Shown here in pieces: positions 13,906 through 33,106 of a stretch of 46,681 nt of DNA; within the stretch, counting starts at the first letter, position 1; each line of letters begins with the position of its first letter. Under the pieces are notes generated by a model, which worked only from the letters and a program-made list of their open reading frames with translations, made no database searches and was not told the origin of the DNA. The stretch comes from Clostridiales bacterium GWF2_38_85 (GTDB taxonomy: Bacteria > Bacillota > Clostridia > Oscillospirales > CAG-382), in the NCBI GenBank assembly GCA_001797275.1, contig MGOY01000047.1, positions 1 to 46,681 on the forward strand. Direction: 5' to 3'. The translations under genes were made by a program, and so were the position numbers.

Positions 13906-14016
13906 TCACGGGAGTTTCACCCCTTGCCCTTGCGGCAAGCTATCCCCATTGCCTGCGACGGTTTTATCACGCTCGGACTGTGGCTGGATAGGAGTATCAT
14001 TATCCTCATTACTCAT
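13906..14016 (-). CDS. Possible 36-residue peptide
   Basis: An ATG at 14016 preceded by AAGGCGAAG opens a 36-codon frame ending in TGA at 13906. The peptide is hydrophilic and rich in Asp, Gln and Pro (begins MSNEDNDTPIQPQ). Its base composition matches the G+C-rich patch it lies in. It could be a small element-encoded protein or a remnant. No function is proposed. Confidence 0.3.
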   Translation of the reverse strand: MSNEDNDTPIQPQSERDKTVAGNGDSLPQGQGVKLP

Positions 14017-26212: not shown

Positions 26213-26250
26213 TATCCACCTCTTCATTAAGTTGAAAAGGTGGATATTTT
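26213..26250. terminator. Terminator between convergent genes
   Basis: TATCCACCT (26213-26221) pairs with AGGTGGATA (26238-26246), followed by TTTTA. It ends the surface-protein gene and may also serve the polyamine operon from the other strand. Confidence 0.7.
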
Positions 26251-27388
26251 ATGATAATCGAGTTTTGAAATCAATATAATCAAATTTTTTAACTTCGATG
26301 ATTTTTCTGTCGGTTGATACAGAATATATTGTCGGTAAAGGCATTCCGTTAAAGGTATTATTCTTAACCATCGTGTAGTGTGCCATATCGATAAATACCA
26401 GTCTATCACTGACTTCAAGTGGCTTGTCAAACGAATAATCACTGATTATATCACCTGCAAGGCATGTAGACCCTCCAAGTCGATAGGTATATGGCTTTTC
26501 ATTCGGTAAGCCTGCACCGATTATCTGAGGTCTGTATGGCATCTCAAGTACATCAGGCATATGGCATGCTGCTGATGTGTCAAGAATTGCTATGTTCATA
26601 CTGTTCTGTATTATGTCAACTACTTCGGAGACCAGAAAACCTGTATTTAATGCAATTGCTTCACCAGGTTCGAGATATACGTGGACATTGTATTTATTCT
26701 GAATCCAATCAATGCATTCAATCAATGTTTTGATGTCATAATCAGAGCGAGTAATATGATGTCCGCCACCGAAATTGATCCACTTCATTCGGTTGAAATA
26801 CTTGCCGAACTTATCTTCAACAGCATCAAGTGTTGTTTTCAGAGCATCCGAGTTCTGTTCGCAAAGAGTATGAAAATGCAGTCCGTCGATACCATCAAGC
26901 AAATCCTCACGAAAATCTGCGATTGTGACACCAAGTCTTGAGCCGGCTGAACAAGGATCATAGATACCGTGTTCTTGCGTTGAACACTCCGGATTTATTC
27001 GCATGCCAAAGCTGCGTCCAGATTTCAATGCTTTTTCTTTGAACTTCTGCCATTGAGAAAAGGAATTGAAAATAATATGATCGCAGATTCGCAGTATCTC
27101 GTCGAAACTTTCTTTTCTGTATGCCGGTGAAAATATATGAGTTTCTCCACCCATCTCCTCATAACCGAGCTTTGCCTCATACAACCCGCTTGCAGCTGTA
27201 CCGCTGAGATATTGTTTTATCAACGGATATAAGTAGAACATTGAAAACGCTTTTTGTGCAAGCAGTATCCGACAGCCTGTTCTGTCGGATACCGATTTCA
27301 ATATTTCAAGATTCTTTTTCAATAAAGCTTCATCAACAATATAACAGGGTGTATTCAGTTCTTTTATATCAAAATTTAGATTTATCAT
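26249..27388 (-). CDS. nspC: Carboxynorspermidine/carboxyspermidine decarboxylase
   Basis: This PLP-dependent alanine-racemase-fold enzyme (379 residues) removes the carboxyl group from carboxyspermidine or carboxynorspermidine. The PLP lysine is K46 in ILLAQKAFSM. Other marks are SGLYEAKLGYEEMGG, HFHTLCEQ, NFGGGHHITR, LEPGEAIA and the inter-subunit loop GSTCLAGDIISDY. It is the last gene of the polyamine operon; its start overlaps the preceding gene by 1 bp. With an agmatine-putrescine route upstream, the expected product is spermidine, not norspermidine. Confidence 0.92.
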   Translation of the reverse strand: MINLNFDIKELNTPCYIVDEALLKKNLEILKSVSDRTGCRILLAQKAFSMFYLYPLIKQYLSGTAASGLYEAKLGYEEMGGETHIFSPAYRKESFDEILRICDHIIFNSFSQWQKFKEKALKSGRSFGMRINPECSTQEHGIYDPCSAGSRLGVTIADFREDLLDGIDGLHFHTLCEQNSDALKTTLDAVEDKFGKYFNRMKWINFGGGHHITRSDYDIKTLIECIDWIQNKYNVHVYLEPGEAIALNTGFLVSEVVDIIQNSMNIAILDTSAACHMPDVLEMPYRPQIIGAGLPNEKPYTYRLGGSTCLAGDIISDYSFDKPLEVSDRLVFIDMAHYTMVKNNTFNGMPLPTIYSVSTDRKIIEVKKFDYIDFKTRLS

Positions 27389-28596
27389 CAGTCAACCAAT
27401 GTTGGATTAAATGTTCCCTGCCATGGAAGTCCCCATTTGTTGAGTGCATCCATAAACGGATCGGGATCAAATTCTTCAACATTATAGACACCCGGTTTTC
27501 TCCAGCTTCCATTCATAACAAGCATTGTACCGATCATTGCCGGAACACCGGTTGTGTATGAGATTGCCTGAGAACCTACCTCACAATAGCATTCCTGATG
27601 ATCGCAAACATTGTAAACATAGTAGTGAACAGTCTTTCCATCCTTGACACCGGTGAAAATACAGCCTATATTTGTCTTTCCCTTCGTTCTCGGACCAAGT
27701 GATGCCGGATCAGGGAGAACTGCTTTCAAAAACTGAAGTGGAACAATCATCTTTCCTTCAAATTCTATCGGCTCAATTGATGTCATGCCGACATTTTCAA
27801 GGCATTTGAGGTGTGTCAGATAACTCTGGCCGAATGTCATAAAGAAGCGGATTCTCTTGATTCCTTTGATGTTGAGAGCAAGCGATTCAAGCTCTTCATG
27901 GTGAAGCAAGTACATATCTTTATTCCCGATTTCGGGAAAATTATAAATCCTCTTTATCTCCATCGGTTCGGTTTCAATCCAATCGCCGTTGTCCCAATAG
28001 CTACCATTTGCTGTTACTTCACGGATATTGATTTCCGGGTTGAAGTTTGTTGCAAAGGGATAACCGTGATCACCGGCATTCGCATCAAGTATATCGATAT
28101 AATGAATTTCATCAAAATAGTGTTTCATCGCATAAGCTGAGAAAACTCCGGTAACACCGGGGTCAAAGCCACAGCCGAGAAGCGCTGTAATGCCAGCTTT
28201 CTCAAATTTTTCTCTGTATGCCCATTGCCACTTGTACTCAAATTTTGCTGTATCCAGCGGTTCGTAATTTGCTGTATCAATATAGTGTGTCTTTGTTGCA
28301 AGGCAGGCATCCATGATTGTCAGGTCCTGATATGGCAGAGCTAAGTTCAATACAACATCTGGCTTATAGCTTTCAATCAGCTTAACTAATTGATTTACAT
28401 CATCAGCATCAAGCTTTGCTGTTGTTATCTTGGTTTTTGTTATACTCTCAAGCTTTTCTTTTAGTGTATCACATTTACTTTTTGTTCTGCTTGCAATGCA
28501 GATTTCTTCGAATACCTCGCTGTTTTGACAACACTTATTAATTGCAACACTTGCAACGCCACCACAACCGATAATTAATGCTCTTCCCATTTTCAT
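27388..28596 (-). CDS. Carboxynorspermidine/carboxyspermidine synthase (saccharopine dehydrogenase family)
   Basis: This 402-residue enzyme reductively condenses a diamine (putrescine or diaminopropane) with aspartate semialdehyde using NADPH. The N-terminal Rossmann motif GRALIIGCGGVASVA is clear, and CGFDPGVTGVFSAY and PGVYNVEEFDPDPFMDAL are typical of the family. It overlaps speB and nspC by 1 bp each, so the genes are translationally coupled. Together with NspC it makes a second, SAM-independent route to spermidine. Confidence 0.92.
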   Translation of the reverse strand: MKMGRALIIGCGGVASVAINKCCQNSEVFEEICIASRTKSKCDTLKEKLESITKTKITTAKLDADDVNQLVKLIESYKPDVVLNLALPYQDLTIMDACLATKTHYIDTANYEPLDTAKFEYKWQWAYREKFEKAGITALLGCGFDPGVTGVFSAYAMKHYFDEIHYIDILDANAGDHGYPFATNFNPEINIREVTANGSYWDNGDWIETEPMEIKRIYNFPEIGNKDMYLLHHEELESLALNIKGIKRIRFFMTFGQSYLTHLKCLENVGMTSIEPIEFEGKMIVPLQFLKAVLPDPASLGPRTKGKTNIGCIFTGVKDGKTVHYYVYNVCDHQECYCEVGSQAISYTTGVPAMIGTMLVMNGSWRKPGVYNVEEFDPDPFMDALNKWGLPWQGTFNPTLVD

Positions 28597-29468
28597 TACC
28601 CTTCCTTCTGTGTTTTATTTGTATTTATTGTGAGTAACAGCTCACGAAGTATTTTACATGCTACCGCTGTCGATGCTCCGCTTTGATCATATACGGGCGA
28701 CAGCTCATTAATATCACAACAAATTATATTGAGTTCATTCAACTTTAATAATGCATTCAACAGCTCATGAAAGCTGATTCCGCCTGCTTCGGGAGTTCCC
28801 GTTCCGGGAAACACAGATGGATCAAGCACATCGAGATCAAGTGTAAAATAAACAGGCTTGTCTTTTAAAGCTTCGATACATTCTTCAAGTCCATTCAAGT
28901 TATATCTGTTCATTTTGACATGGCTTTTCGCCCATTCGAATTCAGCTTTATCACCTGACCGAATACCGAATTGATATATTTTATTATCACCTACAAGCTC
29001 CCATGCTCTGCGGATAACAGTTGCATGTGAAAGCTTTTCACCGAGGTAGTCGTCACGAAGGTCAGTATGTGCATCGAAATGTATTATGTGCAAATCAGAA
29101 TACTTTTTTATAGCCGCACGAACTGCTCCAAGAGTAACCAAATGTTCACCACCGATCATTAACGGGATTTTATTATCTGCAAGCAGCGATGCTGTGAATT
29201 CTTCTATATCATTAAGTACTCTTTCCGTGTTACCAAAGCAAAGTTCAAGATCTCCTGAATCGAAAATTTTGATATCTGTGATATCCTTATCCTGATACGG
29301 ACTGTATGTCTCGAAGCCGTAGGATTCGGCACGCATTGTGCGGCTTGCCATACGAGTGCCGGGACGGTATGAGGTTGTTGAGTCAAAGGGTGCACCGAAT
29401 ATGACTATATCGGCATCCGCGTAATTTTTATCGCAACCTAAAAAAGCGTCAATCTTCGGGTTCAACAT
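28596..29468 (-). CDS. speB: Agmatinase / ureohydrolase
   Basis: This 290-residue arginase-fold enzyme hydrolyses agmatine to putrescine and urea. The binuclear Mn sites are seen in GGEHL, HFDAHTDLRDD and the DLDVLDPSVFPGTGTPEAGG segment. It overlaps speE by 20 bp. Since speE precedes it, it might instead act on aminopropylagmatine, as in some thermophiles; the sequence does not decide this. Confidence 0.93.
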   Translation of the reverse strand: MLNPKIDAFLGCDKNYADADIVIFGAPFDSTTSYRPGTRMASRTMRAESYGFETYSPYQDKDITDIKIFDSGDLELCFGNTERVLNDIEEFTASLLADNKIPLMIGGEHLVTLGAVRAAIKKYSDLHIIHFDAHTDLRDDYLGEKLSHATVIRRAWELVGDNKIYQFGIRSGDKAEFEWAKSHVKMNRYNLNGLEECIEALKDKPVYFTLDLDVLDPSVFPGTGTPEAGGISFHELLNALLKLNELNIICCDINELSPVYDQSGASTAVACKILRELLLTINTNKTQKEG

Positions 29469-30309
29469 TTTTCAATAACTCCTCAACATAATTCGGCAAC
29501 GCAAAAGCTCCGACATGCAGCTTTGTATTGTAATACTTTGTTTCGATTCCGAGTGCTTTCCACTGCTTTGTTTTCAGATCTTTGATAGGATGATACTTTT
29601 TCGAAGCGAAGCCAAACAACCAGTGACCTGACGGATAGGTAGGTATGTGAGCCTGATATAAGCGGCATATATCAAATGTATCGATAATTCTTTTGTGAAC
29701 TCTCTGAACAATTAAAGCATCTTCCTTGTAAAATGGACTTTCATGCTGATTAATCATGATACCGTCTTCTTTTAGTGCCTTATAACAGTTGCCGTAAAAT
29801 TCTTTCGCAAAAAGTCCCTCTCCGGGGCCAAACGGATCTGTTGAATCGACAATAATCAGGTCGTACTCATTATTGTATCTTCTGATAAACTTCAGGCCAT
29901 CCTCAAAATATATTGATATTCTTTTATCATATAGCCCTATAGCGGTTTCGGGAAGATATTCCTTGCATACTTCGACAACCTTTTCATCTATCTCAACAAG
30001 GTCAATATGTTCAACACAGTCATATTTACACAGCTCTCTTGCGACACCACCGTCTCCTGCGCCTACTACAAGAATATTTTTTGGGCTTGGATGCACTGCC
30101 ATCGGGACATGGACAATCATGTCGTGATATATAAACTCGTCCATTTCTGTCAGCATCATATATCCGTCGAGTGTCAGAAACCGACCGAACTCATTTGAAT
30201 CATATATATCAATTCTCTGAAAATCGCTTTGTACACTGACAAGCTGTTTATCAACCCTGATAGACAGCTTAACATTCGGTGTATGCCTTTCGGAAAACCA
30301 TAATTCCAT
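29449..30309 (-). CDS. speE: Spermidine synthase / aminopropyltransferase
   Basis: This 286-residue Rossmann-fold enzyme transfers the aminopropyl group from decarboxylated SAM. Visible parts are the N-terminal beta domain, LTEMDEFIYHDMIVHVPM, the nucleotide motif VVGAGDGGVARE (about 82-91) and the catalytic VDSTDPFGPGEGLF. The acceptor may be putrescine or agmatine. It starts 14 bp after the decarboxylase gene. Confidence 0.93.
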   Translation of the reverse strand: MELWFSERHTPNVKLSIRVDKQLVSVQSDFQRIDIYDSNEFGRFLTLDGYMMLTEMDEFIYHDMIVHVPMAVHPSPKNILVVGAGDGGVARELCKYDCVEHIDLVEIDEKVVEVCKEYLPETAIGLYDKRISIYFEDGLKFIRRYNNEYDLIIVDSTDPFGPGEGLFAKEFYGNCYKALKEDGIMINQHESPFYKEDALIVQRVHKRIIDTFDICRLYQAHIPTYPSGHWLFGFASKKYHPIKDLKTKQWKALGIETKYYNTKLHVGAFALPNYVEELLKNVEPED

Positions 30310-30323
30310 TAATATTCCCTTTT

Positions 30324-31772
30324 CTAACTTAATACATTGATGTATTCAACATTGGGGTCTTCGGTACCTGTCAGAGTACTTCCCTTTTCCTTTGAATAAA
30401 TAATATATTCTATAATATCATCGGTTATCTCCTCACCGGGTGCCAGAATCGGTATTCCGGGCGGATAACACATAACAAATTCCGTACAAACTCTACCACT
30501 ACATTCTCTGATAGGTAATGACTTATTGAGCGAATAAAATGCCTGTTGAGGTGCGACAACAACCTTAGGACTGATATATTCCTGCTTCAGCATACCAAGC
30601 TTACTATGCTTATAACGTCTGCGTATTTCTGCAAGAGCGCTGACCAGCCGTTCAATATCTCTAAATCTATCACCTGCAGAAAGGTATGCCAAGAAGTTTG
30701 CTAAATCACCGAACTCGGTTTGTATGTCGTATTCATCTCTCAATATATCATAAACCTCGATACCGGCAAGTCCGATTTCAAGGGTATTTACAGACAGCTT
30801 TGTATTATCAAAATCATATATTGTATCACCGTTTATCAGTTCGCCTGCATATGCGTAATAATCACCGATTTTATTGATTTCATTTCTTGCATAATCGGCC
30901 ATTGCAACTACCTTTGAATATATGTGTTCACCGTTCAAGGCAAGATTCTTTCTCGACACATCCAGACTTGACATCAATAGATATGAGCCACTGGTTGTTT
31001 GTGTCAAATTAATTATCTGGCGTACACGATTGTGATTTATTCTTTTTCCAGTTAATAAAAAAGAGCTTTGGGTAAGAGAACCACCTGATTTATGCATACT
31101 GACTGATGCAATATCTGCATCAGCTGCCATTGCTGATACAGGCATGTCTTTACCGAAATAGAAATGTGTACCGTGTGCTTCATCTACAAGCACGAGCATA
31201 TTATGTTCGTGTGCAATGTTTGTTATTGAACGCAAGTCTGAGCAAATACCGTAATAGGTAGGATTATTTACAAGCACTGCAACAGCGTCGGGGTTTGCTT
31301 TTATTGCCGCTTCAACTTCACTAACAGACATTCCGAGTGCTATACCCAGCCTGTCATGAGTGTGCGGGTTGACATACACCGGAACTGCACCGCATAAAAT
31401 TAATGCATTTATAACGCTGCGGTGTACATTGCGTGGTAATATAATTTTATCTTCTTTTTTACAAGTCGACAGAATCATTGCCTGAACAGCTGATGTAGTT
31501 CCGTTTGTCATTAGGAATGCATTTGTTGAACCGAAAGCATCGGCTGCAAGCTTTTCGGCTTCTCTTATAACAGAAACAGGATGGCATAGGTTGTCCAGCG
31601 GTTTCATTGAGTTGACATCAACCATCATACACTGTTCGCCGAGAAATGCGGTAAGTTCAGGGTTGCCTCTGCCATGTTTATGACCAGGTACATCAAAAGG
31701 AACCACTCTCATCTTCTTAAAGGCCTCGAGAGCTTCCATTATCGGCGCTTTGTTCTGCAGTTCCCTGTTCAT
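30324..31772 (-). CDS. speA: Arginine (Orn/Lys/Arg-family) decarboxylase, PLP-dependent
   Basis: This 482-residue fold-type I decarboxylase is of the short Bacillus SpeA type. PLP is bound by K228 in [25 protein letters not shown] and [12 protein letters not shown] are typical. Next to an agmatinase gene, arginine is the logical substrate, giving agmatine; lysine or ornithine specificity cannot be excluded by sequence alone. It overlaps speD by 4 bp (ATGA). Confidence 0.88.
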
Positions 31773-32551
31773 TCCTGAATCCTTTTTTGATATATACTCA
31801 TTCCGCTGAAGATTTCAATCATTTCCTGCCGCAGGTCATTCGTTATCTGAAGTCTGGTCTTTGGCGGCAGTTCATAAACATCGGAATTAAAGAGGTAGTT
31901 TTGTAAATCTACTTCTTTAATCAGCATTTTTGTGTGAAAAATATTCGATTGATAGACATTTATATCAATTGCATCATATGTTGCGAGAGTGTCATCGTCA
32001 ATATAATCTTGAATTGAAGTTATATTATGGTCAATAAAAAGCTTCTGACCGCTGATATCTCTTGTAAAACCCCTGACACGATAATCCATTGTTATTATAT
32101 CCGAATCGAAGCTTCCTATCAAATAATCGAGAGTGCTTAGAGGTGTGATTTCACCACAGGTTGCTACATCGATATCAACTCTAAAGGTGGCTATCGCTTT
32201 ATCCGGATGAAATTCGGGATATGTGTGAACCGTGATATGACTTTTATCAAGGTGAGCATGCACTGTTTCAGTATTCATTGCCAGCATCATTTTTTCTTCG
32301 GCAATCATAATATTTACACTTGCACCCTGAGGCTCATAATCCTGCTTTGAGATACTGAGAACCTGAGCACCAATCATTTCAGCAAGATTACAGAGGATTT
32401 TTGTCAGACGCTCAGAGTTATATTGTTCATCGATATAGGCAATATAATCCCTTTGCTCTCTTTCGCTCTTTGCATAACATACGTCATATATGTTAAAGCT
32501 GAGTGATTTTGTCAGATTGTTAAATCCATAAAGTTTTAATTTGTCTCTCAA
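31769..32551 (-). CDS. speD: S-adenosylmethionine decarboxylase proenzyme (E. coli type)
   Basis: The 260-residue proenzyme cleaves itself before S104 ([12 protein letters not shown]), making the pyruvoyl group that decarboxylates SAM for the aminopropyl transfer. Length and [22 protein letters not shown] fit the large E. coli class. A TTG start at 32551 follows GGAAGGATAA. It is the first gene of the operon and begins only about 45 bp after a terminator hairpin, so expression may depend on read-through of the upstream RNA. Confidence 0.93.
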
Positions 32552-32594: not shown

Positions 32595-32647
32595 CAAAAA
32601 ACGCAAACTGAAATCTGTGACACAAAATCACACATTCACTTGCGTTT
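32595..32647 (-). terminator. Terminator / attenuator before speD
   Basis: On the minus strand AAACGCAA (32647-32640) pairs with TTGCGTTT (32606-32599), and the T-run extends to TTTTTTG. An inner TGTGA/TCACA-type pairing can form. It ends the upstream structured RNA about 45 bp before the speD start. Confidence 0.75.
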
Positions 32648-33018
32648 CAAATCTACATAAATTGTTTGTAAGCGATAAAATCCCTTACAAAATATAATAA
32701 TAATGCAGAAAGTCAGAGTCTATATAGCAAGAACTACTTTTACCACTCTTATTGATTGTTACACAAGTGTAATGTATCCGATGACACATCATTACAGTCG
32801 TTAACCTACATATAGCTGTAAAGAAGCTATACATAAAAATTTTAGAGTATAATCACAAGCTCTTTTGCTTGCATCTACTCAATCAATAAGGCAACACTGT
32901 TGCCAACCGGCATTCGACCCAGCTGTCCGCGGCCTCTTTCGCTTAAAGCATTTTTATGCAATAAGTTTGGTCAAGTTATTCTTAGCATTATAGCTACCTG
33001 AACCATCCTGCTCAGGTT
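32595..33018 (-). ncRNA. Structured RNA of about 420 nt upstream of the polyamine operon
   Basis: A good promoter (33025-33053) and a terminator (32595-32647) bound a region without ORFs. The RNA opens with hairpin ACCTGA/TCAGGT (33016-32995). It has GGCAAC-AGT-GTTGCC (32904-32890). A long-range stem joins TTATTGATTG (32889-32880) to CAATCAATAA (32758-32749) and encloses three hairpins: GAGTA/TACTC with GCAAGC/GCTTGT (32880-32845), TATAGCT/AGCTATA (32831-32811) and TGTAATG/CATTACA (32796-32768). Further stems occur at 32749-32714 and 32689-32667. I do not see hallmarks of SAM-I, T-box, tmRNA or RNase P. It may be a regulatory leader or an independent RNA. Confidence 0.6.
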
Positions 33019-33024
33019 AATATT

Positions 33025-33053
33025 AATATAACACATATTTTATTTAATATCAA
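33025..33053 (-). promoter_or_regulatory. Promoter of the structured RNA
   Basis: On the minus strand TTGATA (33053-33048) and TATATT (33030-33025) are 17 bp apart, with TGT just before the -10 box. The predicted start, near 33018, is directly before the first hairpin of the RNA. Confidence 0.65.
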
Positions 33054-33061
33054 TAGTTTTT

Positions 33062-33093
33062 GAAAAAAAATTATACGGCAATTAATGCCGCAT
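33062..33093 (-). terminator. Intrinsic terminator
   Basis: On the minus strand CGGCA (33090-33086) pairs with TGCCG (33080-33076), followed shortly by eight T residues. It lies just after the short coding remnant 33107-33202 and insulates the RNA promoter at 33025-33053. Confidence 0.65.
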
Positions 33094-33106
33094 AAATCAC
33101 AAAAAC

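Follow-up and report, generated by a model that had tools for sequence, protein, structure and literature searches.

A conserved leader RNA of polyamine genes in Bacillota as a candidate spermidine riboswitch

Introduction

The one verified spermidine riboswitch class found in the literature consists of rare variants of the SAM aptamer (SAM-I variants), and the available part of the report describing it states that earlier evidence for polyamine riboswitches had stayed unconvincing (PMC10853860). According to the same text, these RNAs precede ldcC, speB, speD and speE and act as OFF switches on a terminator. Other candidate elements are associated with polyamine-related genes. The ABC-leader of Pasteurellaceae is a proposed attenuator in front of the polyamine importer operon potABCD, and the potE and odc1 motifs precede genes for the PotE antiporter and ornithine decarboxylase, the odc1 motif being a single long hairpin with a pseudoknot in alphaproteobacteria (available parts of PMC2965389 and PMC8632094, respectively).

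A further RNA was described from a different angle. The pneumococcal F59/srn235 is located between SP0915 and SP0916 (PMC3395615), the latter coding for an arginine decarboxylase (SP_0916; PMC7531197). In the accessible portions of the catalogues it is an sRNA (PMC3395615, PMC12323649), retained in 2025 as a conserved putative sRNA at 869478-869804 (PMC12323649), and a lung fitness phenotype is listed for it (PMC4387999). The corresponding Rfam family, RF02440 (SpF59_sRNA, ldcC RNA), is typed as an sRNA gene.

Here we describe a leader RNA first noticed upstream of speD on the 46,681-nt contig MGOY01000047.1 of Clostridiales bacterium GWF2_38_85, which was analysed in full (the window). Like the SAM-I variants it precedes polyamine genes and ends in a terminator; in contrast with them, neither the window segment (E up to 5) nor L139, a canonical relative (E up to 10), gave a match to the SAM-I family. 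The ABC-leader is reported from Gammaproteobacteria, and the potE and odc1 motifs serve other genes. In the accessible open-access literature, with preprints outside the scope of the search, we found no description of this leader RNA as a cis-regulator, and a term look-up in the available text of PMC11109978, PMC6429828, PMC6296669 and PMC10942264 returned nothing on it. What is already catalogued is just its first 54 nt, as RF02440.

Results

Layout of the leader upstream of speD

The minus strand of the window carries, between 33053 and 32551, a promoter, a hairpin, a structured stretch, a 10-bp stem around three hairpins and a terminator, followed by speD. The first gene downstream codes for the S-adenosylmethionine decarboxylase SpeD (31769-32551; TIGR03331, 404 bits, cut-off 255.8). 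It is followed on the same strand by genes for an Orn/Lys/Arg decarboxylase of the SpeA/LdcC type (30324-31772; PF01276, 232.2 bits; the specific NCBIfam models for decarboxylases score it under their cut-offs), spermidine synthase SpeE (29449-30309; TIGR00417, 316.8 bits, cut-off 249.55), agmatinase SpeB (28596-29468; TIGR01230, 289.8 bits, cut-off 174.3), a carboxynorspermidine synthase-like dehydrogenase (CANSDH; 27388-28596; NF043000, 406.8 bits, about half of the family's cut-off of 800) and carboxynorspermidine decarboxylase NspC (26249-27388; TIGR01047, 509.5 bits, cut-off 409.05).

The initial annotation had proposed most of this architecture from the letters of the DNA, and its elements were recovered. 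The promoter, TTGATA (33053-33048) and TATATT (33030-33025) with a 17-nt spacing, is present. As a scan of the window yielded 6 promoter-like sites for 5.8 expected, i.e. chance level, we judged it together with its relatives: matches of at least 11 of 12 bases are found at the equivalent place upstream of 65 of the 129 loci listed, against 0.2% of base shuffles, which backs its position. The 8-bp hairpin said to open the leader was found at 33017-32996 (-11.7 kcal/mol, z -4.8). The 10-bp long-range stem is exact (32889-32880 with 32758-32749); supported by sequence, fold and the alignment of relatives, it corresponds to the helix that we call P6, with 96.5% of the cells paired in 64 relatives. 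The three hairpins that it encloses are P7 (32880-32845), P8 (32831-32811) and P9 (32796-32768). As for the terminator (32647-32596; -19.7 kcal/mol, z -4.65), no shuffle was as good, and it ends about 45 nt from the start of speD. A simple terminator scan of the window did not list it, probably because its stem is interrupted. As a whole, the 425-nt leader folds at -134.8 kcal/mol (z -7.2).

The remaining parts were delineated with the help of the relatives described below. The 5' strand of a closing stem, P1 (P1a/P1b), lies at 32973-32997 and pairs within 32714-32745 in the minimum free energy fold and in our covariance model R2. It is followed by a 5' domain (32907-32973) with P2 (GACC/GGUC), P3 and P4, which includes a conserved CGGACAG, and by the P5 hairpin (GGCAAC/GUUGCC; 32890-32904), in which all six pairs show two-sided changes among relatives. 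The segment CACUUGUGU (32761-32769) contains a conserved CUUGUG and is complementary over 9 nt, with one G-U pair, to the 5' arm of the terminator, ACGCAAGUG (32645-32637); we propose it as an antiterminator strand. The 3' domain, GAGUGGUAAAAGU...UUGCUAUAUAGACUCUG (32714-32748), is a highly conserved block that provides the 3' strand of P1.

A second terminator-like hairpin with a T-run is found on the minus strand just upstream of the promoter (33071-33095). It possibly terminates transcription of the YgjP-like and DUF188 genes that lie upstream.

Relatives and their distribution

The window RNA is a divergent copy of a leader RNA of about 250 nt present at no fewer than 130 distinct loci, mostly in Bacillota. 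BLASTN gave matches in 14 of 60 genomes, that of the window included, and 13 of these sequences, again with the window, were used to build a first covariance model, R1. A 20-base pattern brought in at least 118 named GTDB loci; this model confirmed 117 of the 118 listed, and the one without a match, L058, was dropped. Together with the 14 BLASTN loci (the 13 seeds and L012) these make 131 loci listed, 130 of them distinct, L003 and L063 being one place. At three loci the R1 match is truncated where the retrieved sequence ends, and those of L023 and L054 are weak. The loci listed belong to Oscillospiraceae, Lachnospiraceae, Faecalibacterium, Blautia, Acidaminococcus, Phascolarctobacterium, Paenibacillus, Bacillus, Neobacillus, Kurthia and others.

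A larger model including the closing stem, R2, was made from 64 sequences without the window. With the genome of the window counted, it found matches in at least 52 of 197 genomes of the order and 10 of 63 of the family (E up to 0.01), and across an evenly drawn phylum sample in at least 25 of 398 genomes, again counting that of the window. These searches, in which at most 10, 32 and 5 candidates per genome were scored, respectively, listed one match per genome. Among the eight genomes behind loci cut by an edge, two have two matches, in one case a full and a partial copy and in the other two contig-end fragments. The phylum sample provided 24 further loci, of which three had been seen before and 21 lie outside the 131; L147 equals L139.

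The window copy itself scores 97.4 bits with R2 (E 8.5e-31), which supports homology over the whole element, and it shares the gene context of its relatives. Its R1 score is 128 bits, but it is one of the 13 seeds of that model.

A phage collection gave no match and a plasmid collection a single Paenibacillus replicon. Two copies in front of speD, L071 and L104 (57 and 101 bits), come from contigs that bear the labels Spirochaetes and Synergistaceae; their placement is a matter of transfer or mis-binning. In some low-scoring relatives before speD or ldcC (L160-L164) hardly more than the CUUGUG strand and the 3' domain is left by eye, some of them having P1b too, and these compact variants point to the 3' part as the core.

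Gene context

The first recognised gene downstream codes for SpeD at 42 of the 131 loci listed, for SpeA/LdcC at 41, for a PotA-like protein at 23 and for CANSDH at 16, with none recognised at 9. Longer flanks, obtained for eight of these nine, added SpeA/LdcC (L037), CANSDH (L021) and SpeD (L104). A polyamine gene is thus found downstream at 125 of the 131 loci, a C39-like peptidase gene at three, and at the remaining three (L024, L047 and L106) the contig end is reached first; in the genome of L106, another fragment, matching the 3' part of the model, precedes SpeA/LdcC. The 24 loci of the phylum sample all precede SpeD, SpeA/LdcC or CANSDH. These counts, which cover the 131 loci and the phylum-sample loci, tie the RNA consistently to one metabolic pathway. 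Two PotA members were checked and both exceed the TIGR01187 cut-off, and the CANSDH identity rests on NF043000, below its cut-off.

The three loci that do not precede polyamine genes, L023, L050 and L054, are followed by genes for secreted, lipoprotein-like proteins that are related to one another and match Peptidase_C39_2 and Peptidase_C70 with scores exceeding the Pfam cut-offs; the proteins at L023 and L054 are 58% and 34% identical to that at L050. The stretches concerned are 1960-2123 and 2230-3045 in L050, and L215 and L217 denote the loci of L023 and L054. By eye, L050 keeps the 3' domain, and just the RF02440-like 5' domain is recognisable at L023 and L054; at L054 it stands without the rest of the element. 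The RF02440-like 5' domain may therefore be a separable module.

Conserved fold

The consensus fold was established on 64 of 106 dereplicated sequences (from 128 with both flanks), chosen for their middle length; this alignment, A2, leaves out the window and other long or divergent copies. A first RNAalifold structure on another alignment, A1, in which CACA and UGUG are paired, was replaced by a structure made by hand. The latter has 61 pairs in 11 helices, with 91.4% of the cells paired, against 27-43% when the structure is slid. The covariation that the initial annotation had proposed to look for among homologues is present: 28 pairs show two-sided change, compared with 16.7 in shuffles (none of 500 as high), and 242 cells with 86, counts that lean towards the structure to the extent that it was made from two of the A2 sequences.

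Most compensatory change is found in P1b, P3, P5, P7 and P9. P4 never varies, and in P6 and in P10, the proposed switch helix, any change is confined to one side; covariation by itself is thus no proof of P6 and P10, which are carried by their near-invariant pairing. Apart from these three helices, which hardly vary, the RNA thus has an aptamer-like conserved domain with compensatory changes. The closing stems P1a (84%) and P1b (86%) join the 5' end to the 3' domain. RNAalifold on A2 extends P10 to UUUAUAAGUU/RACUUGUGAAA and also gives a helix GAGU/ACUC (columns 281-284 with 314-317) that competes with P1a and is a candidate second switch helix in this model. A pseudoknot between UGCCG and a CGG, proposed by eye, was rejected, as both sides hardly vary and give it no support.

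Relationship with RF02440

No Rfam 15 family, including T-box and other cis-regulator families, matches the leader at gathering thresholds, in agreement with its description in the initial annotation as an unassigned RNA. That description stands at this level but not below it, since a permissive scan matched 32907-32973 to RF02440 (30.9 bits, E 0.0014, gathering score 37.2). Similarly, the statement that it bears no known riboswitch signature was nearly right, the exception being its 5' part, to which a 54-nt Rfam 'sRNA' family corresponds. The window copy misses the RF02440 gathering score and genome G000 has no RF02440 match, but all ten relatives scanned exceed that score (37.8-71.5 bits) over 5'-part model positions. 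In the canonical member L139, the other eight matches of a permissive Rfam scan have at most 19 bits, far under their cut-offs. A match of the window to S774 (31.1 bits, cut-off 48) was dismissed as chance over the A/T-rich promoter. The sole gathering-level Rfam match in the window is a pemK RNA (RF02913) elsewhere on the minus strand (13906-14003; 49.8 bits).

The 54 positions of the RF02440 model correspond to the 5' domain of the leader RNA, namely P2-P4, CGGACAGCCGGGUC and UGCCG; the leader RNA has in addition P5-P10, the 3' domain, the closing stem P1 and a coupling to a terminator, none of which is part of that model. RF02440 occurs in 17 of the 398 phylum-sample genomes, and all 17 matches lie inside an R2 match. 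In this sample it is thus always a fragment of the larger element. Lactococcus lactis is the one named control genome with RF02440. The full element is presumably present in Streptococcus as well.

Coupling to the terminator

An intrinsic terminator was detected by script at 116 of the 126 loci listed with at least 300 nt downstream. The window is among the other ten, as its interrupted stem, which nevertheless folds well, is invisible to the script. RCARG, the complement of CUUGU, is found in 81 of the 116 terminator 5' arms (81 of 115 distinct ones), compared with 7.2 ± 2.5 after shuffling. For stems scoring at least 12, it is present in 77 of 106 arms versus 13 of 176 control terminators, which come from overlapping 450-nt windows of the sequence retrieved for these loci (Fisher, 6e-31, a p-value that was not pre-specified, RCARG having been picked after inspection of the arms). 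Complementary runs of at least 6 nt occur at 95 of 115 loci listed, against 21% of shuffles. A weaker result came from ranking all 8-nt segments of the RNA by their complementarity to the terminator arm: CUUGUG came first at only 28 of 115 loci listed (2.7% of shuffles).

One flank of this pairing covaries with the RNA: CUUGUA goes with U (7 U, 3 C) and CUUGUG with C (43 C, 6 U; p 4e-4). Over all 85 RCARG arms, the base facing the variable R is U in 7, C in 3 and A in 2 cases for A, and C in 43, U in 6, A in 23 and G in 1 for G; in 29 of the 85 there is no pairing at this flank, 23 of 73 CUUGUG arms facing an A. The other flank shows no covariation (A with 59 U, 20 C and 2 A; G with 3 A and 1 C).

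In the conserved fold, including that given by RNAalifold, the CUUGU strand sits in helix P10. Not all loci use it in the same manner: in 14 Bacillales loci the terminator arm prefers the AUUUGCU of P1b, and 35 of the 116 arms lack RCARG, four of them (three distinct loci, L002, L003 = L063 and L004, relatives of the window) repeating the 3' strand of P1a, GACUC. Arms with RCARG and arms that repeat P1a both imply mutual exclusion of the fold and the antiterminator, and we infer from these sequence relationships that stabilisation of the fold would favour termination. For the putative competition between fold and platform, the statistics across loci are strong and covariation is found on one side of the pairing, but the ranking of 8-nt segments is weak and the predicted energies of the window copy are unfavourable to its antiterminator.

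Discussion

The initial annotation had left the choice between a large polyamine-linked riboswitch or attenuator and an independent RNA. The first is strongly favoured by the conservation of the element, its cis context at 125 of 131 loci listed and its coupling to terminators, and attenuation of polyamine genes in cis is very likely in our opinion. That the RNA senses a ligand directly appears quite likely, and we consider it probable that the leader of the speD operon is an OFF riboswitch that acts by terminating transcription and responds to a polyamine, with spermidine as the likeliest one. As long as the ligand is absent, ACUUGUG would pair with the terminator's 5' arm further downstream, and RNA polymerase would continue into speD-ldcC-speE-speB-CANSDH-nspC. 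The ligand would stabilise the aptamer, i.e. the P1 closing stem, P2-P9 and the P10 helix UUUAUAAGUU/RACUUGUGAAA. The CUUGUG strand would then be sequestered, so that the terminator could form and transcription would stop before speD.

As for the identity of the ligand, CANSDH consumes putrescine. The products of speD, ldcC, CANSDH/nspC and potA seem to have in common just that they raise the level of spermidine or a near relative, which fits OFF control by an end product; spermidine itself is about an even bet on these grounds. The same architecture might instead respond to putrescine, agmatine, cadaverine, SAM or decarboxylated SAM (dcSAM), a proposal that, for the polyamines, overlaps with the one we prefer. 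In favour of this, dcSAM is the product of SpeD, and LdcC-type enzymes yield agmatine or cadaverine. However, SAM and dcSAM fail to explain why the same RNA is also found with the transport gene potA and with CANSDH/nspC, a pair that does not depend on SAM, and shutting off CANSDH in response to its own substrate putrescine would be odd. We thus regard another ligand as unlikely, and a spermidine-like end product as the better candidate.

Somewhat less likely still is a leader that acts in cis but whose effect on termination is mediated by an RNA-binding protein or some other indirect signal. The terminator and the competing pairing would look alike in that case, and a protein site could explain the invariant unpaired bases. 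Nevertheless, protein-binding leaders usually need less size and conservation than this RNA has, with its approximately 250 nt, 11 helices and long near-invariant stretches maintained from Paenibacillus to Blautia to Acidaminococcus.

That the element is a trans-acting small RNA, as the listing of the Streptococcus F59/SpF59 piece would have it, seems very improbable. F59 is catalogued as an sRNA (PMC3395615, PMC12323649), but a terminated leader would show up as a discrete RNA too, and a polar effect could give the lung fitness phenotype listed in the available part of PMC4387999 just as well. Against a role in trans, at 125 of 131 loci listed and at 24 of 24 further ones the RNA precedes polyamine genes on their own strand, and a flank of the terminator arm covaries with it. 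Nothing here requires an independent role for the terminated transcripts. Lastly, a leader-peptide (uORF) attenuator would also suit an operon controlled by a terminator, but what is conserved are base pairs and loops, and no conserved ATG is seen by eye in the consensus, which makes it hardly credible.

Coming back to the riboswitch that we favour, a broader proposal has in our eyes roughly equal chances of being right or wrong: these RNAs would form a widespread Bacillota class of about 250 nt with a spermidine aptamer unrelated to SAM-I, terminating transcription of genes for both polyamine synthesis and import. SpF59 would be its 5' fragment, the RNA or its 5' domain would precede a C39-like peptidase gene in a few genomes, and the copy in the genus of the window would have been remodelled, with a possible change of ligand or affinity. 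If so, this candidate class would be independent of, and much larger than, the variants of the SAM aptamer, with a defined expression platform; direct sensing of polyamines by RNA would become testable in many Gram-positive bacteria, such as Faecalibacterium and Blautia; and a catalogued pneumococcal sRNA would be reinterpreted as a piece of a cis-regulator.

The window copy departs from the canonical members in several respects. It keeps the 3' domain, P2, P4, P5 and P6, the latter with U-A pairs where most relatives have U-G, as well as the 9-nt complement between CACUUGUGU and the terminator arm. It has longer P7 and P9 hairpins and rewritten P8 and P10 helices, and non-standard pairs are found at 2 of 5 model positions in P10, 1 of 5 in P8, 2 of 7 in P1a and 1 of 7 in P1b; judged by the model, P10 is partly lost. 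The 5' hairpin lies over the P1a strand, where most canonical relatives have CAGAGUC-like P1a bases, and might be a local replacement of, or a competitor with, that strand. The antiterminator conformer is predicted to be 13.8 kcal/mol less stable than the terminator conformer, with a mean pair probability of 0.0 even before the 3' arm of the terminator is made. The sole other genome of the genus in the search has a match of 24.8 bits. The window copy represents a diverged sub-lineage, perhaps with altered specificity; presumably it still works like the canonical members. By eye, GCUUGUG occurs a second time in its extended P7, as another possible partner of the terminator arm.
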